Assembly: GCF_004339085.1 (NCBI RefSeq)
Contig: NZ_SMFX01000001.1
Span: forward strand, 62,001-126,000
DNA length: 64,000 bases
Reading direction: 5' to 3'
Source: Thiogranum longum
Lineage (GTDB): Bacteria > Pseudomonadota > Gammaproteobacteria > DSM-19610
This document shows, piece after piece, positions 17,998-43,364 of this stretch (position 1 is the first letter of the stretch; each line of letters begins with the position of its first letter). A program made the translations under genes and the position numbers. Below the pieces are notes generated by a model. The model saw only the letters and a program-made list of their open reading frames with translations, was not told where the DNA came from and searched no databases.

Positions 17998-18013
17998 TGG
18001 CGTGAATTTTGCT
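17998..18013 (+). promoter_or_regulatory. Sigma-54 promoter before the first pilus operon
   Basis: TGGCGTGAATTTTGCT matches the sigma-54 consensus TGGCACGN4TTGCW at ten of the twelve defined positions. It keeps the invariant GG and GC separated by ten bases. Transcription would start near 18024, about 30 nt before the first gene. Confidence 0.65.
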
Positions 18014-18052
18014 TCATATCCCCTGCTAGCACGGCAGCAACAGGGTAACACC

Positions 18053-23968: not shown

Positions 23969-23980
23969 AGTAGAAGAGCG

Positions 23981-25186: not shown

Positions 25187-25190
25187 CTTC

Positions 25191-27354: not shown

Positions 27355-27806
27355 GGTACTCAAACCTGGCCCTATCATTAATCTTTCTACTGACACCTTG
27401 TGCTACTGCACTGGCTGATCCGTGGGGTCTACTGTTCACCACTCCGAACCAGCGTGCCCGTCTGGATAGCGGGCAGGCAGAGCCTGCCCCCTCGGCAAGC
27501 AGCTCTTCCGGTGGTTCCAGGCAGGAAAGTGCAGTCGAGCCTATACAGTTAACCGGCACGCTGACCAGCAACAGGGGTAAGCGCACGGCCTGGATAAATG
27601 GCAAACCGGCTTCCCGTGACGTTCGTGTACTTGGTGCAGGGCGTGTACAGCTATACACACCTTCATCAGAATCACCTCTCCTGATCAAATCCGGTCAGCG
27701 GCTTAACCCCCAAACGGGGGAGATTGTCGAAGGCTACACAGCGCCGCCGGAAGCTGTAAACGCTACTGCGCAAACGGAGACGGACACGGCCGACGCGCCG
27801 ATGTGA
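27351..27806 (+). CDS. MshK/PilP-like periplasmic protein (first locus)
   Basis: This 151-residue protein has a signal peptide (about 1-22, ending TALA). A Ser/Gly-rich linker and a small domain follow (VEPIQLTGTLTSNRGKRTAWINGKPA...LLIKSGQRLNP). The same pattern of a strand, an INGK turn and more strands is seen in MshK of the second locus (IIFSNDRRIAIINGQRV). MshK and PilP connect the inner-membrane complex to the secretin. The gene starts with GTG overlapping the upstream stop by 4 nt and itself overlaps the next gene by 4 nt. Confidence 0.65.
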   Translation: MRYSNLALSLIFLLTPCATALADPWGLLFTTPNQRARLDSGQAEPAPSASSSSGGSRQESAVEPIQLTGTLTSNRGKRTAWINGKPASRDVRVLGAGRVQLYTPSSESPLLIKSGQRLNPQTGEIVEGYTAPPEAVNATAQTETDTADAPM

Positions 27807-28942: not shown

Positions 28943-29634
28943 CTGATACTACTACACAACGCGGCTTCACACTGATTGAAATGGCCATTGTTCTGGTCAT
29001 ACTCGGCTTGCTGCTGGGCGGCGTTCTCGCGCCACTTTCTGCTCGCCAGGAACAGGAACGCCGCGATAAAAATGCCGAGCTGCTGGAGAAGGCGCGCGAT
29101 GCGCTTATCGGGTTTGCACTGGTTAACGGAAGATTGCCATGCCCGGACACGGATACGGCGGGCAACCCGGGTAGTGGACAGGAGAATTCTCCCTGCTCTA
29201 CCAACCCGGCCACTCCGCCACCGCAGGGACGACTCCCCTGGGTAACGCTCGGCGTTGTCGGTGAGTATGACGCCTGGGGTGCACCAAACCAGATTCGTTA
29301 TATCGTAAACGGTGGTTTCACAACTCCTTTTACCCTTGGCACGGCCGGTTCCTTCAATGGAATCATCGAGGTGCATACTGCTGCGGGAAACTGTGGGACC
29401 ACCAACAACCTGGTCGCCTGGAACATCCCCGCACTGATATGGAGTTCGGCGCAGACAAATTACGCCACACAATCGCCGCCGCGAGCTGACGAGGCAGAAA
29501 ATGCTGACATCGATCGCTGCTTTGTCTACCGGGAGTACAGCACGCGTGATGGCCAGGAGTTTGATGATCAGATGGTGTGGGTGTCACAAAACGTTCTTTT
29601 TAACCGCATGATCGAAGCGGGTCGTTTGCCCTGA
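28939..29634 (+). CDS. Type IV prepilin-like protein with CPD/LPW motifs, paralogue 2
   Basis: The 231-residue protein has a nine-residue leader ending RG, then FTLIEMAIVLVILGLLLGG, a textbook class III prepilin cleavage site with Glu5. The region GRLPCPDTDTAG, a second cysteine, and GRLPWVTLGV is shared with the preceding protein, identifying a small paralogous pilin family. Further cysteines near the C-terminus may cross-link the head domain. It is the tenth gene of the operon and overlaps the previous one by 4 nt. A 195-bp gap follows. Confidence 0.85.
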   Translation: MTDTTTQRGFTLIEMAIVLVILGLLLGGVLAPLSARQEQERRDKNAELLEKARDALIGFALVNGRLPCPDTDTAGNPGSGQENSPCSTNPATPPPQGRLPWVTLGVVGEYDAWGAPNQIRYIVNGGFTTPFTLGTAGSFNGIIEVHTAAGNCGTTNNLVAWNIPALIWSSAQTNYATQSPPRADEAENADIDRCFVYREYSTRDGQEFDDQMVWVSQNVLFNRMIEAGRLP

Positions 29635-29829
29635 ACCTTGCGCAACACAATAACACCCTGTATTAAAAAGATATTTATAAAAACATTCGATGCTGTCACA
29701 AAATTAAAGGCTGACGCATTTCAGGCCGATAACCAGCTACGTTCCATAGTGAACTCAACAGATAATTTACGCGCGGTTAACCCTTTTTCAGGCTGCGCGT
29801 AAAAACGAATTGAATGACGGGGAAATACC

Positions 29830-30435
29830 ATGAATAGTAAACAACGCGGTTTTACACTGGTCGAGATTGCCATTGTGCTGGTCATTATCGGCCTTCTGCT
29901 GGGCGGTGTGCTCAAGGGCCAGGCGATGATCGAGAATAGCCGCTACAAACGACTGGTGGCTGACCTGGACTCGTTCCGTACTGAGGTCTACATGTTCCAG
30001 GACCGCTACGGCGCACTCCCTGGTGACATGATTAACGCCAGCACGCGGCTTAATGCGGCGGCAGCCAACGGTAATGGCGACGGTAGTGTGAATGGTGGCT
30101 GGTGCGATTCAGCTGGCGAGGAAGCCTGCCTTGTCTGGTCACATCTACGTTATGCCGGTTTGCTTGGAGGTGACCCTACAGCCGTAAGTCCCAATGATGC
30201 ACGTGTTTTTGACAACCCCTACGGCGGCATCTATGACTCGGTTTCTACAGGAAACTGGGCGAACGGCCGTACCGAGCTCAAAATCCTGATGAGGAACATG
30301 CCCGGCGATGTTGCCCAACGCCTCGACGATGAGATTGACGATGGAAATGCGACAACGGGTGAGGTCGCGCGCTACCAGGGCGCGGGGGCAACCTATGATC
30401 CGAACGCCAGATTGAGTGTTTTCGTGTCACTCTGA
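29830..30435 (+). CDS. Type IV prepilin, probable major pilin of the first locus
   Basis: This 201-residue prepilin has leader MNSKQRG and the mature start FTLVEIAIVLVIIGLLLGG. A helix containing YKRLVADLDSFRTEVYMFQDRYGALPGDM follows, a motif common in class III pilins of MSHA-like systems. The head domain has a cysteine pair (WCDSAGEEAC). It is set apart from the operon by a 195-bp gap and is followed by a strong terminator. It may therefore be expressed more strongly than the other genes, as expected of a main fibre subunit; that role is inference. The site GGGGAAA lies about 5 nt before the ATG. Confidence 0.85.
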   Translation: MNSKQRGFTLVEIAIVLVIIGLLLGGVLKGQAMIENSRYKRLVADLDSFRTEVYMFQDRYGALPGDMINASTRLNAAAANGNGDGSVNGGWCDSAGEEACLVWSHLRYAGLLGGDPTAVSPNDARVFDNPYGGIYDSVSTGNWANGRTELKILMRNMPGDVAQRLDDEIDDGNATTGEVARYQGAGATYDPNARLSVFVSL

Positions 30436-30784: not shown

Positions 30785-31390
30785 ATGCACCAGCAAATCA
30801 ATCTGTTTCAGCCGGTTTTCAGAAAACAGCACAAAGTGTTTTCCGCCACCACGCTGTCACAAATCGTGGGCGCTGTTGCTGTCTTGCTGATCCTGCTGCT
30901 GGGGCATGCCGGATGGACGCTGACAGGAATGAATGCCACCGCAGATAACCTGCAGGAACAATACGACCATCTCCAGCAACAAGTTAAAGCGCTGGACGAG
31001 ACGCTGCGCACACCGGATACCCAGCTGCTGGATAGCGAGATCGAACAACTTCAGTCGAGTATCGAGGAAAGAAATCTGTTGCTGACGCGTTTCGGCAACC
31101 TGGTCATCGACCAACAGACTGGTTTCTATGACCACTTCCGCACGCTCGCCGAACTGAATGTTCCCGGCCTCTGGCTGGAGGGTGTAAGTCTGGACGGCAA
31201 TGCCAATGTCGAAATCCGGGGCAGTACGCTGGAGGCGAGGCTGGTACCGCTCTATTTGCAGCAGCTTGAAGATCAAAAGGAACTGTCTTCAACTGCCTTT
31301 GAAACCGTGCAGCTTGCGCGACCGGACGTACAGCAGCCAAAGATCGGCTTCGTGCTGCGTAATTTCCAGGGAGAGCCGGCGTGGGATTGA
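30785..31390 (+). CDS. PilN/MshI2-like inner-membrane pilus protein
   Basis: This 201-residue protein starts QQINLFQPVFRK, a segment typical of PilN (NLLPWR-type) and MshI2. One membrane helix (about 24-43), a coiled coil (about 50-105) and a small periplasmic domain follow. It should bind the actin-like MshI, which in this locus is encoded at the far end (42438), and pair with MshJ, whose gene overlaps its end by 10 nt. It is the first gene of the canonical MSHA block in the order mshI2-J-K-L-M-N-E-G. Confidence 0.82.
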   Translation: MHQQINLFQPVFRKQHKVFSATTLSQIVGAVAVLLILLLGHAGWTLTGMNATADNLQEQYDHLQQQVKALDETLRTPDTQLLDSEIEQLQSSIEERNLLLTRFGNLVIDQQTGFYDHFRTLAELNVPGLWLEGVSLDGNANVEIRGSTLEARLVPLYLQQLEDQKELSSTAFETVQLARPDVQQPKIGFVLRNFQGEPAWD

Positions 31391-32025
31391 AGATCAGGCT
31401 GCAACAAATCTCCGAGCGTATCGATGCGCTGGAATTGCGCGAACGTGTCCTGTTGCTGGTGGCAGCCATCGCGGTGCTGTTTTTCAGCATTGATACGCTG
31501 GCGCTTCAGCCTGTTCTGAAGTCACAGCAAGTGGCGCGTGAACGTATAACCGAACTGGAATCACGCCTTGACGCACTGCGTCAGCAAGCCCGCCTGCTGC
31601 GTTACCGGAGTGATGTTGACCCTTTGCAGGCCAGACACGAACAGCGAGACAGACTGAAGCTCGAACTTGACTCACTGGACAAGCAGATTGTCGAGCAACT
31701 CGGTGCGCTGGTAGAACCTGCGCAGGCCGCGGACGTGCTGGAGCAGGTGTTGGCAAATCACCGCGGCCTCAGGCTCGTTACCCTCGAAGCCAGCACACGC
31801 ACGCTTGACGACGTTGAAATCGAGGATGGCGACACTGCAGGGCTTGGTCGTTACCAGATCGATATGGTCGTGGATGGAAACTATATGGACGTACTGGCCT
31901 ATCTCGGGGAGCTCGAATCACTGCCATGGAAATTCTTCTGGCAAAAAGTCGATTTCCAGAGCACAGAATACCCGCATGCAACAACGCGTCTGAAACTTTA
32001 TACGCTGGGGGCCAGCCATGGCTAG
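31381..32025 (+). CDS. mshJ: MSHA biogenesis protein MshJ (PilO-like)
   Basis: This 214-residue bitopic inner-membrane protein has a membrane helix at about 22-42, a coiled coil (about 48-115) and a PilO-like periplasmic domain. The end, ESLPWKFFWQKVDFQSTEYPHATTRLKLYTL, is a recognisable MshJ signature. It starts with GTG inside the end of the PilN-like gene. MshJ and the PilN-like protein form the alignment complex between the cytoplasmic motor and the secretin. It overlaps mshK by 8 nt. Confidence 0.88.
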   Translation: MGLKIRLQQISERIDALELRERVLLLVAAIAVLFFSIDTLALQPVLKSQQVARERITELESRLDALRQQARLLRYRSDVDPLQARHEQRDRLKLELDSLDKQIVEQLGALVEPAQAADVLEQVLANHRGLRLVTLEASTRTLDDVEIEDGDTAGLGRYQIDMVVDGNYMDVLAYLGELESLPWKFFWQKVDFQSTEYPHATTRLKLYTLGASHG

Positions 32026-32335
32026 ATATCTTGCAGTAATCGTGCTTGGTGTGCTGCTGGCAAACACGGCCATGGCATTCAGTGACCCGACCCGTCCTGC
32101 TGACCCGGTACTGTATTTCGGTAACGGAAACAGCCGTGGTGGCTGGGCGCTGCAATCCATAATTTTTTCCAATGATCGCCGAATCGCCATTATTAACGGG
32201 CAGCGCGTAAAGGAAGGCGGACGAATCGGGTCAGCCCGGGTCGCACGCATCGAGAACTCGCACGTTGTACTCAAAACCCGGGGCCGAACGCTGAAACTGC
32301 GCCTGCACCCTGACCTGGTAAAGACAAGGCCATGA
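32018..32335 (+). CDS. mshK: MSHA biogenesis protein MshK
   Basis: This 105-residue exported protein has a signal peptide ending near AMA. FSDPTRPADP follows, then the strand-turn-strand pattern WALQSIIFSNDRRIAIINGQRV, and the end TRGRTLKLRLHP. These are hallmarks of MshK, a small PilP-like periplasmic protein of MSHA systems. It overlaps mshJ by 8 nt and mshL by 4 nt, and so is tightly placed within the operon. Confidence 0.9.
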   Translation: MARYLAVIVLGVLLANTAMAFSDPTRPADPVLYFGNGNSRGGWALQSIIFSNDRRIAIINGQRVKEGGRIGSARVARIENSHVVLKTRGRTLKLRLHPDLVKTRP

Positions 32336-34056
32336 ACATGAATCATCGCATATCTGTCACTTGTATCCTGTTCGCCAGCATGGCACTCAGTGCCTGTCAG
32401 CAAATACCCGTCCGCACAGTCACCAGACTGCCGGCCATTACCGAGGCACTGGACACTGCCCGGTCACAACAGCCTGTCGTACCTGCAGAACCCCCGAAGG
32501 CTGTTCAGGACGCGCTGCTTCCGCCAGTGCAAGGCACGCTGGGCCGGCAGACACCGCACGTGCCGACCTATGACGTTACGGTTAAAGATGTTCCGGCACG
32601 TGAGTTCTTCATGAGCCTGGTGGATGGTACCGGTGACAATATGGTCGTACACCCGGAGGTTTCGGGAACCCTGACGCTGGATCTCAAGGATGTAACCACC
32701 GAAGAGGTGCTCGCCACTGTGCGCGATGTCTATGGCTACGAATTTCGCCACAAACACGGGGTCTACCAGATATTCCCTGCGCGCATGCGCTCGCGTGTCT
32801 TCAAGGTAAGCTATCTCGACCTGCAACGCAGGGGCAGCTCGCGTACTCGCGTCAGCTCCGGGCAGGTAACACAGGCACCACCGTCCAGTTCAACACGTGG
32901 CGGAAACAATGCTTCCGGAACAGGATCAACGGGAGGATTGGCCAATCCTCCTGCTGCAGGATCACCCAACAGAAACAACCAACGCAGTTTTTCGGGCGCC
33001 CAGGTTTCCACACAAACAGATTCCGATTTCTGGATGACGCTGGAAACATCACTGAAAACATTGATCGGCGAGAAGGATGACCGCAAGATTATCGCCGACC
33101 CACTGTCCGGCACTGTACTGGTACGCGCCATGCCGCGTGAGTTACTGGATGTCGAGCAGTACCTGGATACATTACAGCGCTCCGTCAACAGGCAAGTTAT
33201 TATCGAAGCCAAGATTGTCGAAGTACAATTGAACGATGCTTTCCAGGCTGGCGTTAACTGGAGCCAGTTTATTGATATCCAGGGCGCAAGCCGTGAGCTC
33301 ACCGCCGGCGTATTCGGAACAGGGCTGGCAAGCCCACTGAACAACATCGACAATGCCGACGCATCAACATTGAGCAGCGTTTTTGCACTGGATGCACATA
33401 TCGGAGACTTCGATGCGCTGCTGGAACTCCTTAAAACGCAGGGTGACGTTCAGGTACTATCCAGTCCGCGCGTTTCGACCGTCAACAACCAGAAAGCCAT
33501 TATCAAGGTCGGTACTGACGAGTACTTTGTAACAGACCTGGACATTGAAACAGACGTTGCCAATAGCGTTTCCAACCAGTCTGCGGATGTTACCCTGACC
33601 CCGTTTTTCTCGGGCGTTGCGCTGGATGTCACGCCACAGATAGATGAAGACGGCAGTATTACCATGCACGTCCACCCGGCCATCAGCGAAGTAACCGAAG
33701 ATCAGAAGCGCATTAACATATCGACATCGACTTCCTTTTCTCTGCCGCTCGCAACCAGTTCGATTCGTGAATCGGACACCATTGTGCGGGCGCATAACGG
33801 GCAAGTCGTTGTTATAGGCGGACTGATGCAGGACATCGTAAAGGATGATGTTGCAACAACTCCGTTTTTCGGCGATCTGCCCATTGTAGGCACGGCGTTC
33901 CGCCACACACGCAAGGTCTCGCGTAAAACCGAACTCGTTATTCTGTTGCGCCCGGTTGTTGTCAATGCAGATCGCGGATGGTCTAACGAAATACAACACA
34001 CCGGTAACAGGTTTAACACTATCAGTCACCCGGATATACCCTTGTCAACCTGGTAA
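32332..34056 (+). CDS. mshL: MSHA secretin MshL (lipoprotein)
   Basis: The 574-residue secretin has a lipoprotein signal with lipobox LSAC (C22). An STN-like domain follows (VKDVPAREFFMSLVDGTGDNMVVHPEVSGTLTLDLKDVT), then N modules and a long Ser/Gly/Asn-rich loop (about 163-225). The secretin core begins near VIIEAKIVEVQLND and ends VVVIGGLMQD...KTELVILLRPVVV. It builds the outer-membrane channel for the MSHA pilus. It differs from the first-locus secretin in length and loops, so the two loci are not a recent duplication. Five base pairs separate it from mshM. Confidence 0.93.
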   Translation: MNMNHRISVTCILFASMALSACQQIPVRTVTRLPAITEALDTARSQQPVVPAEPPKAVQDALLPPVQGTLGRQTPHVPTYDVTVKDVPAREFFMSLVDGTGDNMVVHPEVSGTLTLDLKDVTTEEVLATVRDVYGYEFRHKHGVYQIFPARMRSRVFKVSYLDLQRRGSSRTRVSSGQVTQAPPSSSTRGGNNASGTGSTGGLANPPAAGSPNRNNQRSFSGAQVSTQTDSDFWMTLETSLKTLIGEKDDRKIIADPLSGTVLVRAMPRELLDVEQYLDTLQRSVNRQVIIEAKIVEVQLNDAFQAGVNWSQFIDIQGASRELTAGVFGTGLASPLNNIDNADASTLSSVFALDAHIGDFDALLELLKTQGDVQVLSSPRVSTVNNQKAIIKVGTDEYFVTDLDIETDVANSVSNQSADVTLTPFFSGVALDVTPQIDEDGSITMHVHPAISEVTEDQKRINISTSTSFSLPLATSSIRESDTIVRAHNGQVVVIGGLMQDIVKDDVATTPFFGDLPIVGTAFRHTRKVSRKTELVILLRPVVVNADRGWSNEIQHTGNRFNTISHPDIPLSTW

Positions 34057-34060
34057 TACG

Positions 34061-34963
34061 ATGATGTACCTCAACCACTTTTCGCTGACCGAGCCACCGT
34101 TTACGCTAACACCGGATACGGAGTTTTTCTTCGACAACGGTGCACACCGCGAAGCCCTGAATGTATTACGGGTCGCGCTGCATGGTGGGGAAGGGTTTAT
34201 CAAGGTTACCGGTGAAGTCGGAACCGGGAAAACCCTGCTTTGCAGAAAGTTGCTTGGCTTGCTGGACGACACCTGTACAGCCTATATCCCGAACCCGTTT
34301 CTTAACCCGGTGGCGCTACGCATGGCCCTCGCAGAAGAACTGGGCATCAAGTTTGCGCGCAATATTGGCCAGCACCGGCTGCTTGGTCTAATCACCGAAC
34401 GGCTCATCGAGTACGCCGCACAGGACAAGCAGGTTGTCCTGCTGCTTGACGAAGTGCAGGCCATGCCGGATGAAACGCTGGAAGCACTACGCCTTCTGAC
34501 CAATCTTGAAACCGAGAAACGCAAGCTCATGCAGGTTGTCCTGTTTGGGCAGCCTGAACTCGATCACCGTCTGTCTCAAAAGCATCTTAGGCAACTCAGG
34601 CAACGTATTGTCTTTTCCTACCAGCTTGGCGCTCTCGACAGGCACACGCTCGGAAAGTACATCATCCACCGCCTTCGTGTGGCCGGTTGCGACAATCCGG
34701 AGCTGTTCACTGCGCGTGCACTTAAACAGATACACCGTGCAAGTCGCGGCATACCGCGCCTGGTCAACCTGCTCTGCCACAAGTCCATGATGGCGGCCTA
34801 TGGCGCCGGCGCCACTCAAATAGGCGTGACTTACATACGGCTTGCCGCAAAGGATACCGAGGATACCTGCCATTCACACCGTCGCCGGGTAGCGATGGCC
34901 TCCGGCCTGGCCGGCCTGCTGGCCCTGACCAGTGCCGGACTGTTGTATGCGTACGGATTATGA
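34061..34963 (+). CDS. mshM: MSHA ATPase MshM (ExeA family)
   Basis: This 301-residue AAA ATPase has Walker A GEVGTGKT (about 51-58), Walker B VVLLLDEVQAMP, and one C-terminal membrane helix (about 278-298). Unlike the first-locus ATPase, it ends right after that helix and has no SPOR domain. The start MMYLNHFSLTEPPF matches the family; a longer frame back to 33956 would run into mshL and is not used. It overlaps mshN by 4 nt (ATGA). Likely role: helping secretin assembly or pilus biogenesis at the inner membrane. Confidence 0.9.
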   Translation: MMYLNHFSLTEPPFTLTPDTEFFFDNGAHREALNVLRVALHGGEGFIKVTGEVGTGKTLLCRKLLGLLDDTCTAYIPNPFLNPVALRMALAEELGIKFARNIGQHRLLGLITERLIEYAAQDKQVVLLLDEVQAMPDETLEALRLLTNLETEKRKLMQVVLFGQPELDHRLSQKHLRQLRQRIVFSYQLGALDRHTLGKYIIHRLRVAGCDNPELFTARALKQIHRASRGIPRLVNLLCHKSMMAAYGAGATQIGVTYIRLAAKDTEDTCHSHRRRVAMASGLAGLLALTSAGLLYAYGL

Positions 34964-36015
34964 GCCTGATAAATCAAATGCTACGTGACCTTGACGCACG
35001 TCGTGGCCCCGCCAGTCACGTCGAGGCTGCTGCATTGCAGGGTATGGGCCTGGCCGATACTCCTCGCTTCAGCCTGTCGCCAATGGTGTGGCGAACCGGT
35101 TTGGCGGCCGGGCTCGTAGTCGCCGGAATGCTGTTCCAGTTTGCTTACCAAAGCTGGCAGGAACAGCAAGACAGCCATGTACCTTCACCACCGGTAAATA
35201 CAGCGCTGCCAGAGACCAGAACAGACATGCCACAGCCCGGGCAAACGGCTACAACCCATGCCACACAGGAAGCGGGCATTGTTACGCCGCCCGCAAAAAT
35301 ATCTGTGGCCGATACCCCGGTTAGTACCGGCCTTGTTTCCTCACCAGCGCCCCTCGTGTCGAATGACGTGGCCGCATCAGAGGACAAACCCACGCCAGAG
35401 CCCACACCCGTTACAGCTGCCAAAAAAGTACTGACGACGGAAGAGACAGCGCAACGTCACTATAACCGTGCCCAGGGTTTGTTAAAGAACGGAAATCTGC
35501 ATGCTGCCACTGTAGCGCTTCAATCTGCTCTCGAACTGGAGCCCGGAAGAACCGATACGCGCATTCAGCTTGCCGGCTTGTGGCTACAGCAGGGTCTCGC
35601 AGATAAAGCACACGGCCTGCTCCAGTCCGGATATCAGACTGATCCCGGCAGCACACCACTGGCTGTTGCCTATACCCGCCTTCTTGCCGACCGTCAGGAA
35701 TATGCGTCAGCGCTCGAAATACTCACACCGGTACTCAACAAAAACGGTACTTCACCGGATTTGCTTGCGCTGTCAGCCGGTATTCATTACCGGCTTGGTC
35801 AGTACCGGACGTCAGCGAATCAGTATCGGGCCGCACTGTCCCTTCACCCTGAGCAAGGCGTCTGGTGGATGGGGCTTGGTGTTTCACTTGAGCACGACAG
35901 AAAACCCGCCGAAGCACTCGCAGCATACCGGAAAGCGCAGATGACCTCGTTAAATCTTGTGCTCAGAAAATTTATAACCGGGCGAATCAACGCCCTGTCT
36001 CGGAATATGGACTAG
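34960..36015 (+). CDS. mshN: MSHA TPR protein MshN
   Basis: The 351-residue protein begins SLINQMLRDLDARR, the standard MshN N-terminus. One membrane helix (about 46-64), a Pro/Thr-rich periplasmic linker (about 70-150) and TPR repeats (about 155-345; for example YNRAQGLLKNGNLHAATVALQSALEL) follow. It is the counterpart of the protein at 21048-22271 and probably bridges the inner-membrane complex to the secretin. It lies between mshM (4-nt overlap) and mshE (3-bp gap). Confidence 0.9.
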   Translation: MSLINQMLRDLDARRGPASHVEAAALQGMGLADTPRFSLSPMVWRTGLAAGLVVAGMLFQFAYQSWQEQQDSHVPSPPVNTALPETRTDMPQPGQTATTHATQEAGIVTPPAKISVADTPVSTGLVSSPAPLVSNDVAASEDKPTPEPTPVTAAKKVLTTEETAQRHYNRAQGLLKNGNLHAATVALQSALELEPGRTDTRIQLAGLWLQQGLADKAHGLLQSGYQTDPGSTPLAVAYTRLLADRQEYASALEILTPVLNKNGTSPDLLALSAGIHYRLGQYRTSANQYRAALSLHPEQGVWWMGLGVSLEHDRKPAEALAAYRKAQMTSLNLVLRKFITGRINALSRNMD

Positions 36016-36018
36016 GCT

Positions 36019-37728
36019 ATGTCTGCAATTATGCCCACACGGCGCATTCGTATCGGCGACCTTCTGGTAGAACAAAAGATTATATCGGAAGCCCAACTTA
36101 ATGAGGCGCTCAAGGAACAGAAAAAGAGCGGGCGCAAACTCGGCCGTGTACTCATCGAAAACGGGTTTGTCGATGAAGACCAGCTTTTGCTGCTGTTGTC
36201 CGAGCAACTCAACATACCTTATGTAGATCTGTCACGCTTCGAACTGAATCCCGATCTGGTTACACGACTTCCCGAGACCCATGCCCGGCGTTATCGAGTG
36301 CTCGTGCTCAAGGAAACGGCTACCGGGCTCATGGTCGGCATGGGAGATCCTACCGATATTTTCGCCTATGACGAGCTGGTACGTTTGCTGAAAACGGACG
36401 TCCAGATCGCCTGCGTCAAGGAAAGCGACCTTTTACATAATATCGACCGCATGTACCAGCATGCTGATCAGTTGCGACATCTGGCCAATGAGGTTGGCCA
36501 GGACCTGGCCGATAATGCTTTTGATCTACGTACGCTCTCCAGGAGCAGTGACCAGAGTGACGCTCCTGTTGTACGCCTTATTCAGACGGTTTTCGAGGAT
36601 GCCGTTCGTGCAGACGCATCGGATATCCACATTGAACCTGACGAAGATGTTCTCCGTATACGTCGCCGGATCGATGGCGTGTTGCACGAACAGATTATGG
36701 AAGATACCCGTATTGCATCGGCTGTTGTTTCACGTCTTAAATTGATGGCAGAAGCCGACATATCTGAAAAACGTTTACCCCAGGATGGCCGCTTTACCCT
36801 GCGCGTGCTCGACAAACATATTGATGTTCGTCTTGCGACCATACCGACGCAAACCGGTGAAGCCGTTGTTATGCGACTACTGGATCATGGCTCAGCCATT
36901 CGAAAACTCGACCAGCTGGGCATGCCTGAGGATATACTTGAACGTTTTCGTGCGCATGTACATCGTCCCCACGGACTTGTGCTGGTGACCGGGCCTACAG
37001 GTAGCGGCAAGACCACTACCCTGTACGCGGCATTATCAGAACTCAACAAACCACAGAAGAAAATAATCACGGTTGAAGACCCTGTTGAATATCAGTTACC
37101 ACGCATCAACCAGGTCCAGGTTAATCACAAGATCGACCTGGGTTTTTCCCGAGTACTGCGCACCACACTCCGGCTTGACCCTGATATTATTCTCGTCGGC
37201 GAAATGCGCGATCGCGACACCGGTGAGATAGCGCTCAGAGCCGCGCTTACCGGTCATCTTGTCTTGTCCACACTGCATACCAATGATGCTGTCAGCACGG
37301 CGATGCGTCTTGTTGACATGGGACTTGAACCCTACCTGATTGCTTCTTCGGTTCAGGCTATTCTGGCCCAACGCCTGATACGCAGAATATGCAGTAACTG
37401 CAGCAGTCCAAAGATTCTCGATCCGGGTGAACAGGCCTGGCTGAAAGCGGTATCCGGCGAGGCAGAGTGCAGCCATACCTTTCATGAGGGCAGTGGTTGC
37501 AACCAGTGTAATCATACCGGTTACCACGGCCGCATAGGCGTCTATGAAATGCTTGATATCGATTATGTTCTCGCCGATGCGTTAAGACGTAATGCGCCTG
37601 CAGAATTCGAGAATGGCGCACGTGATCAAGCCGGGTACAGACCCTTGCTCGATAATGCACTCGATTTTGCACGCCAGGGTATTACCAGTCTTGCCGAAGT
37701 CATGCGGCTCAGTGGCGCTACGGTATAA
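36019..37728 (+). CDS. mshE: MSHA assembly ATPase MshE
   Basis: The 569-residue GspE/PilB-family motor has an N-terminal MshEN domain (RIGDLLVEQKIISEAQLNEAL...GRVLIENGFVDEDQLL), which in characterised MshE proteins binds cyclic di-GMP. The motor has Walker A GPTGSGKTTTL (about 325-335), VEDPVEYQLP, DPDIILVGEMRDRDT, and TGHLVLSTLHTND. The zinc motif is CSNC with CNQC. It is about as long as the first-locus ATPase and should drive extension of the MSHA pilus. No PilT-type retraction ATPase is present in the window. Confidence 0.95.
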   Translation: MSAIMPTRRIRIGDLLVEQKIISEAQLNEALKEQKKSGRKLGRVLIENGFVDEDQLLLLLSEQLNIPYVDLSRFELNPDLVTRLPETHARRYRVLVLKETATGLMVGMGDPTDIFAYDELVRLLKTDVQIACVKESDLLHNIDRMYQHADQLRHLANEVGQDLADNAFDLRTLSRSSDQSDAPVVRLIQTVFEDAVRADASDIHIEPDEDVLRIRRRIDGVLHEQIMEDTRIASAVVSRLKLMAEADISEKRLPQDGRFTLRVLDKHIDVRLATIPTQTGEAVVMRLLDHGSAIRKLDQLGMPEDILERFRAHVHRPHGLVLVTGPTGSGKTTTLYAALSELNKPQKKIITVEDPVEYQLPRINQVQVNHKIDLGFSRVLRTTLRLDPDIILVGEMRDRDTGEIALRAALTGHLVLSTLHTNDAVSTAMRLVDMGLEPYLIASSVQAILAQRLIRRICSNCSSPKILDPGEQAWLKAVSGEAECSHTFHEGSGCNQCNHTGYHGRIGVYEMLDIDYVLADALRRNAPAEFENGARDQAGYRPLLDNALDFARQGITSLAEVMRLSGATV

Positions 37729-37733
37729 ACTGT

Positions 37734-38951
37734 ATGCCTGAATTTCAATATAAAGCACGAGGCCATCGCGGCGACGCCATTGAAGGTGTTATCGATGCAC
37801 CCAGTTCGGATATTGCCGCCACACGTCTGATCGAAGGTGGGTTGACGCCGGTAGATATACACATCGCTGAAGAAAAATCCGGCCTGAGCGCAGACCTTAG
37901 CGACCTGTTCCCGGCGAAGATTGAATTAATTGACCTTATCCAGTTCAGCCGCCAGATGTACAGCCTGATGAAAGCCGGCGTACCAATTCTCAGTGCCTTG
38001 CACGGCCTCGCCGTGAATGGGCGCAACCGTACGTTGGGGCGTACGCTGAATGGCGTCATTGAAAATCTTGAAGCCGGTCGCGACCTCTCCAGTTCGCTGG
38101 CACAGTTTCCAGACGTCTTTTCTGTCTTTTACGTCAGTCTCGTTCGTGTTGGCGAAACCAGCGGTCGTCTCGATGAAGTATTCAGGCAACTGGCAACCTA
38201 CCTTGACCGCGAACTGAAGACCCGCAAGAAAGTGAAATCAGCCCTGCGTTATCCGACATTTGTCCTGACTGCCATCCTGGCAGCAATCACCATCATTAAT
38301 ATTTTTGTTATTCCCGCTTTTGCAGAGGTATTCAAAAGTCTCGGCGGGCAGCTTCCACTGCCCACCCGGATCCTGGTTGCCATGTCCAATGCAACGGTCA
38401 ATCATTGGGAACTGCTGCTGCTGGGTGCTGCCGTGATATTTGTCGGCGGCCATTTTTATATCAATAGTGATGCCGGACGCTACAAATGGCACAAGCTGCA
38501 ACTCCGCCTGCCTATGGTCGGCAAAGTCATGTACAAAGCTACGTTGGCACGTTTCAGTCGTCTTTTTGCGCTGGTACTCAATGCCGGCGTACCGATTGTT
38601 ACCGCACTGTCCGTTATTGGTCGCGCCCTGAACAACGAGTTCATCGAGGAACGTGTACTCAGCATGCGTGATGGTATTGAACGCGGCGAGTCGGTCAGTC
38701 GCACGGCGTCAAGCACCGGGATTTTCGATCACCTGGTCCTGCAAATGCTCGAAGTGGGTGAGGAGTCCGGCACTACTGGCGAGCTACTGAAGGATATATC
38801 GGATTACTATGATGATGAAGTCGACTATGCGATCGAAAAGCTCAGTGCTTCGATTGAACCGACACTCACCATAGCCCTGGCCTGCCTGGTTGCCCTGCTG
38901 GCAGCCGGTGTATTCCTGCCCATGTGGGATTTGTATAAAGTTGCACTCTGA
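37734..38951 (+). CDS. mshG: MSHA platform protein MshG (GspF family)
   Basis: This 405-residue inner-membrane platform protein has two GspF repeats (LIQFSRQMYSLMKAGVPILSALHGL and ARFSRLFALVLNAGVPIVTALSVI) and hydrophobic helices near 170-195, 215-240 and 375-400. The start PEFQYKARGHRGDAIEG is typical. It receives force from MshE and adds pilins at the fibre base. It is the last gene of the assembly block; a 251-bp regulatory gap precedes the pilin genes. Confidence 0.95.
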   Translation: MPEFQYKARGHRGDAIEGVIDAPSSDIAATRLIEGGLTPVDIHIAEEKSGLSADLSDLFPAKIELIDLIQFSRQMYSLMKAGVPILSALHGLAVNGRNRTLGRTLNGVIENLEAGRDLSSSLAQFPDVFSVFYVSLVRVGETSGRLDEVFRQLATYLDRELKTRKKVKSALRYPTFVLTAILAAITIINIFVIPAFAEVFKSLGGQLPLPTRILVAMSNATVNHWELLLLGAAVIFVGGHFYINSDAGRYKWHKLQLRLPMVGKVMYKATLARFSRLFALVLNAGVPIVTALSVIGRALNNEFIEERVLSMRDGIERGESVSRTASSTGIFDHLVLQMLEVGEESGTTGELLKDISDYYDDEVDYAIEKLSASIEPTLTIALACLVALLAAGVFLPMWDLYKVAL

Positions 38952-38961
38952 AGGCCCTTAA

Positions 38962-38977
38962 TGTGACTAAAGTCACA
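38962..38977. promoter_or_regulatory. Consensus CRP/Vfr-type site before mshA
   Basis: TGTGACTAAAGTCACA is an exact match to TGTGA-N6-TCACA, the core of CRP-family operators. It starts 11 bp after the mshG stop codon and lies about 225 bp before mshA. Being palindromic it has no direction, but the position points to control of the pilin genes. Confidence 0.6.
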
Positions 38978-39202
38978 ATTAATCTCCCTGCTATTTCAGA
39001 TTTATTTTTAAAAATAATCACCAATAAAACAATATATTTCATAAATATTAATAAAACCAATGAAATAAAGGGGTAGCCGGCATAATGGGCCCATTCATTA
39101 AATTTACGAAAATATCGCAAAAGCTACTAAAGTACTGACGAAGTATTGACGATAATAATAACAGTAAACGCGGGCCTAATGCCCATTCAGGAGATTAACA
39201 GG
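38978..39202 (+). promoter_or_regulatory. AT-rich regulatory region of mshA
   Basis: This stretch is much richer in A+T than neighbouring genes. It holds a perfect 12-bp palindrome AATGGGCCCATT (39084-39095) and two tandem 11-mers, AGTACTGACGA (39131-39141) and AGTATTGACGA (39142-39152), that differ at one base. No clear sigma-54 site was seen. The second 11-mer contains TTGACG, which could act as a -35 box, but no matching -10 is convincing. Confidence 0.4.
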
Positions 39203-39571
39203 ATGAAAAAAGAAGCGGGTTTTACCCTAATAGAGCTGGTAGCAGTACTGGTTATTCTGGCCCTGCTGGGCGCAATGGCAGTACCGCGTTTTGTCGACGT
39301 ATCCGGCCAGGCACTCACAGCTGCACAAAACGGCTCACTGGCAGGTGTACGATCCGGCCATGCAATGGCGATTGCCGACCTGCGTCGTCTTCCGACCGTT
39401 ACAGAATTGTCAACATACGTCGGTGGTCCGAATATTTCGGCTGTCGGTACCGGTATACAAGTCGTCATCAATGGCACCAACTACACCGTTGAGACTTTCA
39501 CCGACACCACATGCACTGCGGCTACCGCTGCTGTAGCGGATACCGTCGGTTGTATCGGTACTATTAACTAG
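39203..39571 (+). CDS. mshA: MshA-like major prepilin
   Basis: The 122-residue prepilin has a six-residue leader MKKEAG and the mature start FTLIELVAVLVILALLGAMAVPRFVD. That is the classic MSHA pilin N-helix with Glu5. AAQNGSLAGVRSGHAMAIADLR is the rest of the helix, and the C-terminal head holds two cysteines (TTCTAATAAVADTVGC) that should form the D-loop disulfide. AGGAG 10 nt upstream selects this start over longer ones. Its own upstream region and a strong terminator after it fit high-level expression as the fibre subunit. Confidence 0.92.
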   Translation: MKKEAGFTLIELVAVLVILALLGAMAVPRFVDVSGQALTAAQNGSLAGVRSGHAMAIADLRRLPTVTELSTYVGGPNISAVGTGIQVVINGTNYTVETFTDTTCTAATAAVADTVGCIGTIN

Positions 39572-39597
39572 TACTGCTCCCCCAACGGAGCATGACG

Positions 39598-39629
39598 AAA
39601 AGGGTGGGCTGGTGCCCGCCCTTTTTTTT
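39598..39629 (+). terminator. Intrinsic terminator after mshA
   Basis: AAAAGGGTGGGC pairs with GCCCGCCCTTTT around a TGGT loop with one G-T wobble, followed by more T residues. Partial termination here would keep the minor pilin genes at a lower level than mshA. Confidence 0.85.
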
Positions 39630-39641
39630 GGACATAACGCC

Positions 39642-40109
39642 ATGGATGTCGTCATTTCAAAAAAAAGTTGTCGCGGGTTCACGCTTGTCGAGCTTGTAGC
39701 CGTTTTATTGATTCTGGGTGTCACAAGCAGCGCCATCATGCTGCGCTGGGCGCCTGGCGACCAGTCGCTCCCGGCACAGGCTGACCTGCTGGCACGTAAC
39801 CTGCGCCATACACAGGCAATGGCACTATCACGCGGTGTGGCGCTGACACTGGATGTCCAGTCCCCGACGACTTACGCCATAACCGATGGCGCGGCTACTA
39901 TTCGAGATTCTGCCGGTGCGCTGCAGGATTTTGTTCTGGATAATGGCGTAACACTGAGTGTCAGTGATTTGAAATTTGATTCACTGGGCCGCCCCCTGAG
40001 TGGCGCCAGCCTCATGTCTACGACCCGGAGCTGGACGCTGAGTGGTGAAAGTTCTATAGCAACCGTCCTGGTTCAGCCCCTGACGGGCCATGTCACGGTG
40101 GCGCCATGA
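39642..40109 (+). CDS. Minor prepilin (GspH/MshC-like)
   Basis: This 155-residue protein has leader MDVVISKKSCRG, then FTLVELVAVLLILGVTSSAIM. The remainder (LLARNLRHTQAMALSRGVALTLDV...FDSLGRPL) is the GspH/FimT pattern seen in minor pilins such as MshC. The frame could begin at a GTG (39612), but that lies in the mshA terminator; the ATG at 39642 is preferred. It opens the group of minor pilins likely to prime or cap the MSHA fibre and overlaps the next gene by 4 nt. Confidence 0.85.
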   Translation: MDVVISKKSCRGFTLVELVAVLLILGVTSSAIMLRWAPGDQSLPAQADLLARNLRHTQAMALSRGVALTLDVQSPTTYAITDGAATIRDSAGALQDFVLDNGVTLSVSDLKFDSLGRPLSGASLMSTTRSWTLSGESSIATVLVQPLTGHVTVAP

Positions 40110-40516
40110 ACTGCCCGGATCGCAAATGCTGTAGCGGATTTACACTTCTGGAACTCATTGCGGTTATCGTCATACTGGCTATTGCTGCTGTCCCCATTTC
40201 AGGACTGTTCACCAAAGCCAGCCTGAGCCTTCTCGAAAACCGAAGTATTCAGACAGCAACACAACTGGCGCAGGAGCAGGCAGAACTGATTCTTGGACGA
40301 CGGCGCACCCAGGGGTTTGCCTCCATAATCACCGGCACATACCCCGAAGTACTTGCGGGAAACTATACCGGCTTCAATCGCACCACGTCCATAAGCCAAC
40401 CCGTCACGGCACCTGCAGGTTGTCCCGCAGGTGCGTTGTGCGACCTGGTCACTGTTTCGGTCGATAAAGGCGCAAGCCCCTTGTCGGAAATCACCTTTGT
40501 GCTGGTGGACTACTGA
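40106..40516 (+). CDS. Minor prepilin MshD-like
   Basis: This 136-residue prepilin has leader MNCPDRKCCSG, unusually rich in cysteine, and mature start FTLLELIAVIVILAIAAVPISGLF. The helix continues with ATQLAQEQAELILGRRR, as in MshD/PilV-type minor pilins. Two cysteines (CPAGALC) are in the head. It overlaps the neighbouring prepilin genes by 4 nt and 1 nt, indicating tight co-expression. Confidence 0.82.
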   Translation: MNCPDRKCCSGFTLLELIAVIVILAIAAVPISGLFTKASLSLLENRSIQTATQLAQEQAELILGRRRTQGFASIITGTYPEVLAGNYTGFNRTTSISQPVTAPAGCPAGALCDLVTVSVDKGASPLSEITFVLVDY

Positions 40517-41046
40517 TGAAGGTTTGCAGCAAACACGATGGTTTCACCCTGCTCGAGATGGTGGTTACTATCGCCACACTGTCACTGCTTGCCATGCTGC
40601 TGACTCCGTACCTCAGCCTTTCGGTACAGGCCTACAATGAAAATGCCCTCGAATCAAACGTGCTTGGTGAATTGCGCTATGCCACAGAACGTATCACGCG
40701 TGAACTTCGTGAAATACGACGCAACCCCTCGTCGCTTTCCGACTACGAAGTTTCAACACCTCTGGTTGTGGGCAGCATCAGCTTTGTCCGCAATGACGGT
40801 GAAACTGTAACCATTGAAGACGCATCGCCACAACTGAATATGCGCTATGCGTCAGTTGCTGCAAACGCTGCTTTTCCGCTCAGTAATTCTTTGCAGCTGC
40901 TGACATTCAACTACCTGCGCAATGACGAAGTGACACCTGCCACCGGTTCTTCCGATCTTGCCTATATCGAGTTCGAAATTCAGCTCTCCTCCAACGGAAA
41001 AACCTACAGCCAGCGTAGCCGGGTCAGTCTGAGGGCGCAGCCATGA
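40516..41046 (+). CDS. Minor prepilin MshO-like (PilW/GspJ type)
   Basis: The 176-residue protein has leader MKVCSKHDG and mature start FTLLEMVVTIATLSLLAMLL. The segment LRYATERITRELREIRRNPS is typical of GspJ/PilW/MshO minor pilins. The remaining residues form a beta-rich head without cysteines. It sits between the MshD-like and MshP-like genes, the usual order mshD-mshO-mshP. The start overlaps the previous stop by one base. Confidence 0.83.
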   Translation: MKVCSKHDGFTLLEMVVTIATLSLLAMLLTPYLSLSVQAYNENALESNVLGELRYATERITRELREIRRNPSSLSDYEVSTPLVVGSISFVRNDGETVTIEDASPQLNMRYASVAANAAFPLSNSLQLLTFNYLRNDEVTPATGSSDLAYIEFEIQLSSNGKTYSQRSRVSLRAQP

Positions 41047-42383
41047 CGCGCTTACCACAACATCAACGCGGCGCAATCACCCTGGTAGGCGCGTTGTTCA
41101 TCGTGGTCGTTCTGTCTGTCATGGCCATTTCACTGCTACAGATGGCGCGCAGCAATATCCTCAACAGCGCGGTAAACAATGATGCCATAGAAGCCCTGTT
41201 CGTTGCCGAGACAGGCGTCGAGCATGCATCCTATCTTTATGCCAGTACGAGTTCATGTGCCGGACTGGCCGGTGTTGGTCCGGTGGCAGCAGGGCGCGGG
41301 AGCTTCGTGCTCAGTAACCCGGTGGTGCAACCGGGTGGCGAATGCCGTGTACAGGTAACCGCCAGTGTTGTGTCGGCCGGCACAGCCCCTTCTGTCCGCT
41401 CGGCACGGGTTGACCTTCGACTCGGTCTCCCGACCGGCGCGTGGGCTGTCGGTAAAAATGGCGCGATTTTTTTCTGGGATGGCACAAGCTGGACCGCATC
41501 CTCTTTTACGGCAAGCGATGACCTTAAAGCCATCACTTGTCCTACTGCAAACGTCTGCCACGCTGTCGGAAAAAATGGTGTCGTTCTGCACTATATCGGC
41601 GGGACATGGACAGAAACCATCCTGGATCCAGGCGAAGATTATGAAGATATTGCCTGTGCACCGAGTAACCCGGACTACTGCTTCCTTGTCGGTAAACAGG
41701 GTGGCGGTATTATTCGTTTCTGGGATGGCAGTAGCTGGTCGGCGCCCTCCGCGTCAACAGCCATTGTTGATGACCTCAAGGCAGTAACTTGCCCGTCCAC
41801 CACCTGCTACGCCGTCGGGAAGAAGAACCAGCCGCCACTGGTCTATAACGGTAGCACATGGGTCAACGACGGTACTGATAACATAAACAAGGAACTCAAG
41901 GGCGTCAGTTGCTACTCAACCACCGGTTGCCAGGCTGTCGGTAAAAGAAACGGTTCGAATTATACTTTTGCACAACGTCCGGGCGGTTCATTTACCTGGC
42001 AACGAAACCAGGTTGCATCGGGCTTTAACAAACCAGACCTTGAATCGGTCTATTGCATATCCGCCAGTGACTGCTGGGCAGCCGGCAAGAAGCGCAAGCC
42101 AGGTAATGATTTTAGCCTGGTACACTGGGACGGCACCAGTTGGATTAGCTGGCCTACTGCAGCACTCGGTAAAGGTGAAGACCTGAAAGGCATATCCTGC
42201 TCTTCCACAATCGACTGTTTTGCAGTAGGAAAGAAGGGTAGCGTCCTGCACTGGAATGGCAGCACATGGTCAGACGCATCATCAGGTTTAACCAACCCTG
42301 ACCTGGAATCCGTCGTGTTTACCGGGGGCTCGTCTGGCAGCAGCGTCGCCCTGGTTCGTTGGGAAGAACTCATCAGAAATTGA
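41043..42383 (+). CDS. MshP-like minor pilin fused to a predicted seven-bladed beta-propeller
   Basis: The 446-residue protein begins with an MshP/PilX-like prepilin segment (QRG, then AITLVGALFIVVVLSVMAIS; no Glu5). MshP normally stops near 150 residues. Here residues 132-446 hold seven repeats of 39-48 residues. Each has an AVGK-like strand (at 135, 174, 215, 257, 298, 346, 394), mostly a WDGTSW-like strand, and a DLKxxxC strand. Six repeats carry a C-x(3-7)-C pair. The last strand (ALVRWEE) could close the ring. Such a propeller on a tip-class pilin suggests an adhesin; the function is inferred. No mshQ or pilY1 is seen. Confidence 0.8.
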   Translation: MTRLPQHQRGAITLVGALFIVVVLSVMAISLLQMARSNILNSAVNNDAIEALFVAETGVEHASYLYASTSSCAGLAGVGPVAAGRGSFVLSNPVVQPGGECRVQVTASVVSAGTAPSVRSARVDLRLGLPTGAWAVGKNGAIFFWDGTSWTASSFTASDDLKAITCPTANVCHAVGKNGVVLHYIGGTWTETILDPGEDYEDIACAPSNPDYCFLVGKQGGGIIRFWDGSSWSAPSASTAIVDDLKAVTCPSTTCYAVGKKNQPPLVYNGSTWVNDGTDNINKELKGVSCYSTTGCQAVGKRNGSNYTFAQRPGGSFTWQRNQVASGFNKPDLESVYCISASDCWAAGKKRKPGNDFSLVHWDGTSWISWPTAALGKGEDLKGISCSSTIDCFAVGKKGSVLHWNGSTWSDASSGLTNPDLESVVFTGGSSGSSVALVRWEELIRN

Positions 42384-42437
42384 CATGTAAGACCAAATCC
42401 ACGACTCTCCGCCGTAGACTTTAAAAGAGGCAACCGC

Positions 42438-43364
42438 GTGTTTTCATTTACGAAAAAACAAAAAGGGAACCGCCTGACCGCGCTCGCGCAAAGTCCGGCA
42501 GGTACGGTCTGCGCCACGATAGTGAAAACGGGCACGGACAAGCCGCGACTTGAGCTGTGTGGCTTCTATCCAGCCAACCCTGGCCAGTCAGCCACCGGAC
42601 ACCTTCAGCAACTGGCGCGACAGCTCAAACTTTCCGGAAACAGTGTGACCACGCTACTGCCGATAGGTAACTACCAGCTGATGATGGTCGAAGCACCTGA
42701 AGTCCCTCCGGCGGAACTGAAAGCGGCCGTACGCTGGCGCATACGTGACCTGATTGATTTTCATATAGATGATGCCGTGCTTGATGTATTTGATGCGCCG
42801 CCCAGTGGCGCGCGCGGTGTGCAGGAAAGTCTCTATGTGGTGGTGTCACGCACATCGACGGTCAAATCGCTGATAGAGCCCTTTGAGGCTGCCGGCATTG
42901 AGTTGGGCATTATCGATATTCCCGAGCTCGCCATGCGTAATATCGCCGCCCGCCTCGAGGCTGACAAGGACGGTATCGCGCTGATTTTTTTCGGCGCAGA
43001 TCACGCCCTCGTTACCCTGACACGCAACTCGACCCTCTACCTGGCACGCAGCATGGACTTCGGTTACCGACAGTTGCAGGAATCGCCGGAACTGGTCGAC
43101 CGTCTGGCGCTGGAGCTTCAACGCTCCATGGACTACTACGACCGGCACTTTCAGCAGGCGCCGATCAGCACGGTGGCATTATGCCCGCTGCCCGTTGAAC
43201 TGTCCGACCTGGCATCACGCCTTGGCGAGCAGACGGGTTTGCCAGTTCAAACCATCGATATTGCGGACATTGTCGAAATCGGTGGTGATGTTGAAACGGA
43301 CCAGCTTGGTGAATGCGTACTTGCTATCGGAGCTGCGTTACGTACCGAGGCAACTCAACTCTAG
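42438..43364 (+). CDS. mshI: MSHA biogenesis protein MshI (PilM-like)
   Basis: The 308-residue cytoplasmic protein has a degenerate PilM/MshI actin-like fold. MMVEAPEVPPAELKAAVRWRIRDLIDFHIDDAVLDVF is a strong family segment, and DRLALELQRSMDYYDRHF is another. No membrane segment is seen. It should bind the PilN-like protein at 30785-31390. In Vibrio and Shewanella loci mshI opens the operon, but here it closes it. The start is GTG at 42438, with AGAGG 7 nt upstream. It lies 54 bp after the propeller-pilin gene. Confidence 0.85.
   Translation: MFSFTKKQKGNRLTALAQSPAGTVCATIVKTGTDKPRLELCGFYPANPGQSATGHLQQLARQLKLSGNSVTTLLPIGNYQLMMVEAPEVPPAELKAAVRWRIRDLIDFHIDDAVLDVFDAPPSGARGVQESLYVVVSRTSTVKSLIEPFEAAGIELGIIDIPELAMRNIAARLEADKDGIALIFFGADHALVTLTRNSTLYLARSMDFGYRQLQESPELVDRLALELQRSMDYYDRHFQQAPISTVALCPLPVELSDLASRLGEQTGLPVQTIDIADIVEIGGDVETDQLGECVLAIGAALRTEATQL

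Follow-up and report, generated by a model that had tools for sequence, protein, structure and literature searches.

A K-type minor pilin fused to a predicted seven-bladed beta-propeller in the MSHA locus of Thiogranum longum, a candidate one-chain pilus tip

The window analysed here, a 64,000-nucleotide stretch of the one-contig, 2.92-Mb genome of Thiogranum longum (C1:62001-126000), contains a mannose-sensitive hemagglutinin (MSHA)-type pilus locus at 30785-43364, in which the gene at the mshP position encodes a minor pilin, a predicted seven-bladed beta-propeller and a conserved C-terminal tail in a single chain. With moderate confidence, we propose that this MshP/PilX-type pilin of the K position caps the MSHA pilus, with its tip effector fused in the same chain and with its own tail as the strand that closes the pilin sheet. 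The fused protein is made up as follows:

41043..42383, + strand: fused minor pilin in the mshP position, 446 amino acids, consisting of pilin, seven-bladed propeller and C-terminal tail (open reading frame (ORF) and translation)
41043..41432, + strand: pilin module, residues 1-130 (alignments and model secondary structure)
41433..42329, + strand: predicted seven-bladed beta-propeller cassette, residues 131-429, with six Cys pairs (AlphaFold2, VIA-align and Foldseek)
42339..42380, + strand: C-terminal tail, residues 433-446, with a predicted strand at 435-443 (alignment and model)

The reading frame is uninterrupted, the mshO-type gene upstream overlaps it by 4 bases, and the fused protein was matched once in the genome. 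Relatives with 37-46% identity over nearly the whole length are found in 7 of 16 other genomes of the genus. The relatives that carry names are metagenome-assembled genomes labelled Thiohalobacter, Thiogranum and others, together with the isolate Thiohalobacter thiocyanaticus Hrh1. Joining of two genes by an assembly error, a merely general possibility in draft genomes, therefore has a negligible probability here: the source genome is one contig, the same fusion occurs in the 7 other genomes of the genus, and a second collection holds 12 full-length loci (L021-L032), seven of which are, judging by their length, the same contigs as in the earlier set, while one of the other five is from the isolate Hrh1 (L032). 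We reject an artefact for practical purposes. The original prediction, made from the window alone, had called such a single polypeptide unusual; the fusion is real, but it is not a one-off, as long cassette-bearing K-type pilins recur with other domains in the same slot.

In the alignments and the model, the pilin module has a leader ending at G10, a long helix at 10-69, Cys residues at 72 and 101 and strands at 78-83, 86-95, 101-109 and 117-127. Cleavage after G10 (..QHQRG/AITLV) would place Val, not Glu, at mature position 5, and Glu is found at this position in none of the aligned relatives. The PilX_N family (PF14341) matches the fused protein only below its cut-off (E 0.91, 10 bits vs 25.5); at E<=0.1 it matches 6 of 13 members of alignment A3 (best 7e-6), the fused protein being outside these six. 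The Pfam methylation motif N_methyl (PF07963; a 2021 census used IPR012902) does not match it at E<=10, nor does any NCBIfam family match it, and no PDB chain was found by sequence. The gene follows mshO (pilW-type) in the minor pilin series. We conclude that the protein is a Glu5-less MshP/PilX-type (K-type) minor pilin, whose likeness to PilX is weak by profile and is supported by the gene order MshA-C-D-O-P; the earlier description of an MshP/PilX-like N-terminus without Glu5 is confirmed, with a PilX profile match below cut-off. That the protein is an ordinary minor subunit along the shaft, displaying several propeller copies, is quite improbable, because the lack of Glu5, the MshP position after MshO and the bulky ring are features that place K subunits at the tip (PMC9934059).

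All elements previously read from the second part of the chain, i.e., seven repeats, six Cys pairs, the strand motifs and a closing strand, are present. The motif [WY]xGxxW occurs at 145, 184, 227, 268, 362 and 404, and a seventh copy, near W319, is degenerate; the six occurrences compare with a maximum of 2 among 10,000 shuffles of residues 132-429. The Cys pairs are 166/172, 205/213, 250/255, 290/296, 338/344 and 386/392, to which the pilin part adds C72 and C101. Folding of the single sequence was poor (predicted local distance difference test score (pLDDT) 58), and AlphaFold2 with 13 sequences gave a mean pLDDT of 81.5 and a predicted template modelling score of 0.67. In VIA-align, model range 131-429 matched 7bid with Z 30.7 and a root-mean-square deviation of 2.5 over 273 aligned residues, and Foldseek placed 7bid and Ycf48 (2xbg) high. 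Residues 131-429 are thus predicted with good confidence to form a closed ring of seven blades, which was the outcome looked for in a structure prediction. As many propeller chains match the cassette, the match informs on the fold and not on function. The Tectonin family matches the fused protein below cut-off (E 0.0028, 17.6 bits vs 30) and the PSII_BNR and Rax2 profiles do not match it, Rax2 matching 8 of 13 A3 members at E<=0.1 (best 1.8e-12). In the model, the closing strand at 421-427 is followed by a Gly/Ser linker and then by the tail strand at 435-443.

Within the tail, all 14 aligned sequences, that of the window included, have V435, W440 and E442, and most read V-x-L-x-R-W-x-E. The distribution of the tail was surveyed with a 22-row query restricted to the pilin part, which matched 96 of 276 gammaproteobacterial genomes at 114 places; 108 of these were parsed, 60 in a first batch and 48, mostly weaker, in a second, and classes were assigned with home-made profiles. 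The survey is a sample, and its statistics are uncorrected for relatedness. As only the pilin part was used to choose the loci, the tail survey is a test apart from the sequences that first drew attention to the tail. Under a strict rule (W.[ED] in the last nine residues of complete ORFs), the tail is found in 24 of 33 long pilins vs 0 of 73 short ones in the 108 loci (Fisher 1e-16), i.e., in 14/19 long and 0/40 short pilins of the first batch and 10/14 long and 0/33 short ones of the second; a looser early rule also flagged L205 and L207, at the end of the cassette. Near the length border, pilins of 208 and 234 amino acids have starts called too far upstream, with the match beginning 76 and 92 residues in, and L306 has 265 amino acids.

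Similar ends are found on PilY1 and MshQ proteins. In the source genome, PilY1 ends in GRLSWEEVEL, whereas PilX lacks an ending of this kind. More widely, W..[LIVMFY] occurs within the last 14 residues of 39/39 readable PilY1 proteins, 0/29 adjacent PilX proteins and 9/317 other ORFs; under the strict W.[ED] rule the counts are 18/39 for PilY1 (33/39 with Q allowed) and 3/325 for other ORFs. MshQ proteins mostly have Y or F in place of W, and aromatic-x-[RKQE]-[EQD] is present in the last nine residues of 18/20 of them vs 1/325 other ORFs. By sequence comparison, the tail with W440 and E442 thus appears as a separate conserved element after the closing strand, and PilY1 and MshQ have C-termini like it. 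In models of two Myxococcus xanthus complexes, the eight C-terminal residues of PilY1 extend the PilX sheet by a strand (Treuner-Lange et al., 2024, PMC11046646), and such strand complementation is reported for four modelled complexes in a 2026 paper (PMC13190605).

The locus around the fused gene contains the following genes:

30785..36015, + strand: stretch around mshL with mshI(N)/J/K and mshM/mshN-type genes (position; the first three unmatched in NCBIfam)
32332..34056, + strand: mshL secretin (TIGR02519 pilus_MshL, 272.5 bits, cut-off 250.2)
36019..37728, + strand: mshE assembly ATPase (cyclic di-GMP (c-di-GMP)-binding MshE-related domain NF053729, 75 bits, cut-off 38; PilB/GspE families below cut-off)
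37734..38951, + strand: mshG-type platform protein (PilC/GspF families, below cut-offs; position)
39194..39571, + strand: mshA-type major pilin (prepilin motif over cut-off; position; start set inside a longer ORF, 39146-39571)
39612..40109, + strand: mshC/GspH-type minor pilin (N_methyl; GspH E 0.0024, below cut-off)
40106..40516, + strand: mshD-type minor pilin (N_methyl; position)
40516..41046, + strand: mshO-type minor pilin (N_methyl; position; 4-base overlap with mshP)
42438..43364, + strand: PilM/MshI-type gene at the end of the locus, directly downstream of mshP (Pfam PilM_2, E 1.3e-11, over cut-off)

The MshL-type secretin and the MshE-type ATPase with its c-di-GMP domain, both over cut-offs, identify the locus as MSHA; the other msh names, mshO and mshD included, are assigned by us from gene position. 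Just upstream, at 18002-30435, the ORF list shows by eye a second pilus-biogenesis-like set, with ExeA-like, secretin-like, tetratricopeptide repeat, ATPase, platform and pilin-like genes and a 379-amino acid protein with a hydrophobic start at 27803.

As originally noted, the locus has no mshQ or pilY1, and the absence of mshQ extends to the genome: DUF6701 (PF20419), the MshQ family, matches neither the fused protein nor anything else in it. The sole pilY1 (C1:2464005) lies 2.36 Mb from mshP along the contig, or, should the contig be circular and closed, about 0.56 Mb in the opposite direction, in its own minor-pilin set beside fimT-, pilV-, pilW-, pilX- and pilE-like genes (L134; by eye). 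The alternative that an mshQ or pilY1 elsewhere serves the locus therefore did not hold, pilY1 being judged by its gene neighbourhood only: its own minor-pilin set accounts for it, and the two systems could share it. Adjoining this set, a second minor-pilin set has no PilY1 (L134:809-4063; C1:2455808-2459062).

In three other loci, propeller repeats of the same kind (tblastn E 3e-12 to 5e-9) lie N-terminal of DUF6701 in MshQ (L048:2142-5182, its frame split into two ORFs; L061:7371-10901; L063:7851-10916), and the 134-amino acid MshP of L048 ends about where the fused proteins enter the cassette. As the repeats are here on MshQ rather than on MshP, the length of MshP was compared with the presence of MshQ. 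The first batch contains 40 short pilins (130-161 amino acids), 19 long ones (307-566) and a further long one whose frame runs into a contig end; DUF6701 is present in 38/40 genomes with a short pilin (37 over cut-off; G256 and G244 are the two without it) vs 1/20 with a long one (G089) (Fisher 2e-12). Counted by hand over families, the figures are 29/31 vs 1/16, with family f58 in both classes, as expected, and DUF6701 is found in 0/20 genomes of the Thiogranum/Thiohalobacter-group family. Among the 20 long-class genomes, 15 have MSHA-type genes upstream and five are unclear (G130, G098, G070, G021 and G189). Propeller repeats of the fused-protein kind occur in seven of the long class (L204, L206, L208, L217, L223, L225 and L253), and others have other domains. 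In these first 60 loci, a cassette-bearing MshP thus mostly goes with a genome lacking MshQ, a co-occurrence that the original prediction had suggested looking for.

The second batch contains 34 short pilins, which are followed by PilY1 (14), MshQ (8) or neither (12) in the next ORFs, and 24 of which are in MshQ genomes. As PilY1 adjoins 8 of the 10 in MshQ-less genomes, the other two being at contig ends, the short class is a mixture of MshP and PilX, each with its own type of partner. Most of the tailed proteins among its 14 long pilins have PGSWRDF-like ends and seem, from sequence, to be another kind of long K-type pilin. A 352-amino acid PilX-like pilin of the source genome also ends in VPGSWRDF (L134:2598-3656), as, with similar ends, do long pilins in L252, L293, L296, L298, L304, L309 and L145. 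The exclusion of MshQ is clear for the strong, mostly MSHA-type matches and does not hold for all long K-type pilins that a genome may contain. Two or three MshP-like matches per genome were seen in L213 (G089, which also has MshQ), L055 (G052) and G055; the two in L055 are in tandem and both are long with a W-x-E tail.

What fills the slot changes among close relatives. In a family search over 56 genomes, 19 genomes matched at E<=0.001, the source genome included, and 14 of 20 family genomes have the locus, as marked by the neighbouring PilM gene. In these 14, the MshP slot holds the propeller in eight (G000, the source genome, and G001, G005, G007, G010, G012, G014 and G016), a jelly-roll-like domain in five (G002, G006, G008, G018 and G019, the contig of the last beginning inside the domain) and the tail alone in one (G015), while the order MshG-A-C-D-O-P-PilM is constant whether the cassette is present or absent. 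"Jelly-roll-like" is a label from sequence alone, the example in L010 being unmatched in Pfam at E<=0.1. In a tree of MshG and PilM with 18 rows (13 of the 14 locus genomes and 5 others), the cassette states need 4 changes, the starred branches forcing at least three for the propeller and at least two for the jelly-roll-like domain. A single clade of the three jelly-roll-like carriers of the genus was not rejected (approximately unbiased test, p 0.147), and with G018 added it was (1.3e-4). G015 clusters with two propeller carriers (support 100/99). In it, the pilin strand (..ADLRLAAG) passes via a short turn into the tail (NSAVTLIRWQEIIAN), and this hairpin-like join suggests that the cassette lies between two neighbouring strands of the pilin sheet. 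The pilus of G015 may be degenerate, because mshK, mshL, mshM and mshN were not found between its mshJ and mshE (L137); its cassette is absent too. At the ends of the cassette, L004 and L005 have a short direct repeat (GCCGG); such repeats code for Gly-rich linkers and prove nothing.

A protein-only scan of genome contigs gave no relative, and an alignment-based scan gave 77 loci. In a phylum-wide search with the full-length alignment, matches beyond the source genome were only partial and in 5 of 299 genomes, so the full pilin-propeller architecture is rare in an even sample; further cases came from the search with the pilin part. Several other proteins combine PilX-like N-termini and propeller repeats (L059, L065, L090, L014, L223, L225, L253 and L075; hosts are Coxiellaceae, Legionellaceae, other Gammaproteobacteria and a Nitrospirota genome). 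Several lie beside MSHA-like genes, and L014, L223, L225 and L253 have an additional I-x-x-E-x-x-x-Y stretch between pilin and propeller. L033:6715-7530 is a 272-amino acid pilin-propeller protein with few repeats, and L034 has a pilin-propeller frame broken in a draft genome. In Patescibacteria (L036, L037, L041, L042, L043, L054 and L058), proteins of about 980-1550 amino acids have a pilin-like N-terminus and propeller matches, several with a common C-terminus, DGxNTPxLxEVRVxYK. Matching repeats are also found in two viral contigs (L098 and L099) inside a 1062-amino acid protein starting MPDDQTIVEGDAGFLGM, with similar matches in L100-L105.

In the mechanism that we propose, the Glu5-less pilin module would top the MshC-D-O-P priming set, and the propeller would be inserted between pilin strand 117-127 and the last strand, formed by tail residues 435-443. 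In a closed propeller ring the two ends are neighbours, which would allow the tail to come back to the pilin and supply the last strand of its sheet in cis. In two-protein systems, the same strand would be given in trans by the C-terminus of PilY1, as modelled in the literature, or, by analogy, by that of MshQ. At the pilus tip the propeller, rigid and braced by disulfides, would act as a binding head, probably one that attaches to a surface, a mineral or a cell; a sulfur or mineral surface as the ligand, for a relative of sulfur oxidisers, is a guess. Since the fused MshP stands in the place of MshQ, the putative MSHA adhesin (PMC7096442), it is a good adhesin candidate.

Alternatively, the propeller may be a structural or assembly module, serving in priming, secretin gating or control of length or retraction, rather than a binding head. 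PilY1 and minor pilins form priming complexes (PMC13190605), loss of mshQ in Vibrio cholerae lowers surface MSHA while retraction continues (PMC7096442), and in G015, lacking both the cassette and mshK-L-M-N, assembly and cassette may be linked. We nevertheless regard this as unlikely, because a swap for an unrelated domain at the same place in one family is more in keeping with a variable ligand-binding part than with a conserved assembly part, and because exchanging mshQ alleles had an effect on squid colonisation and host specificity (PMC4094467). Nor do we think it likely that the W-x-E tail, instead of closing the sheet as a strand, serves the pilus machinery as a signal for sorting or recognition. 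Such a signal would be in keeping with a motif that is short, at the extreme C-terminus and common to the unrelated bodies of PilY1, MshQ and long K-type pilins; the tail is, however, predicted as a strand, follows the last pilin strand hairpin-like after a short turn in G015, and has its counterpart in the PilY1 C-terminus modelled as a strand on PilX (PMC11046646).

Several points weigh against a tip pilin closed by its own tail and replacing MshQ. The pLDDT is only about 70-75 at 431-446 and below 50 at 429-432. The fused protein is unmatched by the PilY1 propeller family (PF05567) at E<=10, so its propeller is outside that family. The strict tail is absent from 9 of 33 complete long pilins (L205, L207, L214, L240, L248, L297, L306, L308 and L213b), of which L205 and L207 are MSHA-type loci without MshQ and L214 ends in ..VISW, and it is absent from L059, L090 and L014 in the other set of loci. 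The PilY1 and MshQ motifs were written after the tails were inspected, and the two modelled M. xanthus PilY1 strands contain no W (PMC11046646), so that the W motif is not universal. MshQ is among the next five same-strand ORFs in just 13/40 first-batch short pilins, which makes its link to short pilins mostly a genome-level one, and among the next same-strand ORFs in 8/34 of the second batch. Three genomes (G089, G053 and G200) hold both MshQ and a long pilin, the copy of G089 in the second batch being its second, and many tailed long pilins of the weaker half are PGSWRDF-like and may lie outside MSHA loci. On the tree, the cassette labels are unclustered, shuffled labels scoring as low in 54/200 cases, and G018 is a long, weakly placed branch.

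More tentatively, we suggest that a single tip device, common to MSHA and type IVa pili, may exist in a split form (PilX/MshP with PilY1/MshQ, strand in trans) and a fused form (long K-type pilin, strand in cis), that the two forms may interchange in evolution, and that the slot between the penultimate strand and the tail may be a site of effector exchange. How tip adhesins are anchored on type IV pili and what forms the MSHA tip are questions that the fused protein addresses. It offers a plain prediction for fused and split systems alike, namely that the tail strand closes the K pilin, and solving the structure of a one-chain tip is far easier than solving that of a tip made of several proteins. 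The family, with its different domains at a single site, provides a natural series of pilus tips whose presumed ligands differ. The W-x-E tail can serve to find tip effectors with bodies outside known families.

Modular and exchangeable tips are a known kind, the latter for a Tad pilus (PMC12075869); the variant described here, i.e., a K-type pilin with a propeller, a changeable slot, a tail shared with split adhesins and no MshQ, was not met in the searches made, which covered openly licensed papers only and gave none on an MshP fusion, MshP/MshQ exclusion or a C-terminal W motif of PilY1. The modular pilins PilB and PilC of Streptococcus sanguinis likewise have an effector domain grafted on a small pilin for display on the filament (Raynaud et al., 2021, PMC8179133). 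They possess Glu5 and are collected by the N-terminal motif IPR012902 (PMC8179133), whereas the fused MshP is a Glu5-less K-type pilin of an MSHA system with a propeller module and its cassette before the last strand. GspK of type II secretion, counted among the likely modular pilins and proposed as a tip subunit, has an extra domain inserted into the pilin sheet, as in the fused MshP (PMC8179133), and is also without Glu5 (PMC9934059), but the inserted domain is here a propeller and in relatives another domain. The KilLMN tips of the Myxococcus Tad pilus are pilin-like proteins with extra domains, with several tips per pilus; they differ in system, in forming a heterotrimer and in their domains, the word propeller not occurring in the text of that paper (PMC12075869). 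Ycf48 and designed propellers (2xbg and 7bid) resemble residues 131-429 in fold and blade number at about 9-15% identity, which implies no common function. PilX and PilY1 of type IVa pili show the same order of pilin, seven-bladed propeller and C-terminal strand (pilX, then pilY1), with a W motif near the C-terminus, but are two chains, with a PF05567 propeller and a variable N-terminal domain in PilY1. MshP and MshQ of classical MSHA systems share the kind of locus and the position, an aromatic-x-R-E C-terminus and, in some MshQ (L048, L061 and L063), such propeller repeats; they differ in being two chains and in the large DUF6701 part of MshQ, which the fusion lacks.

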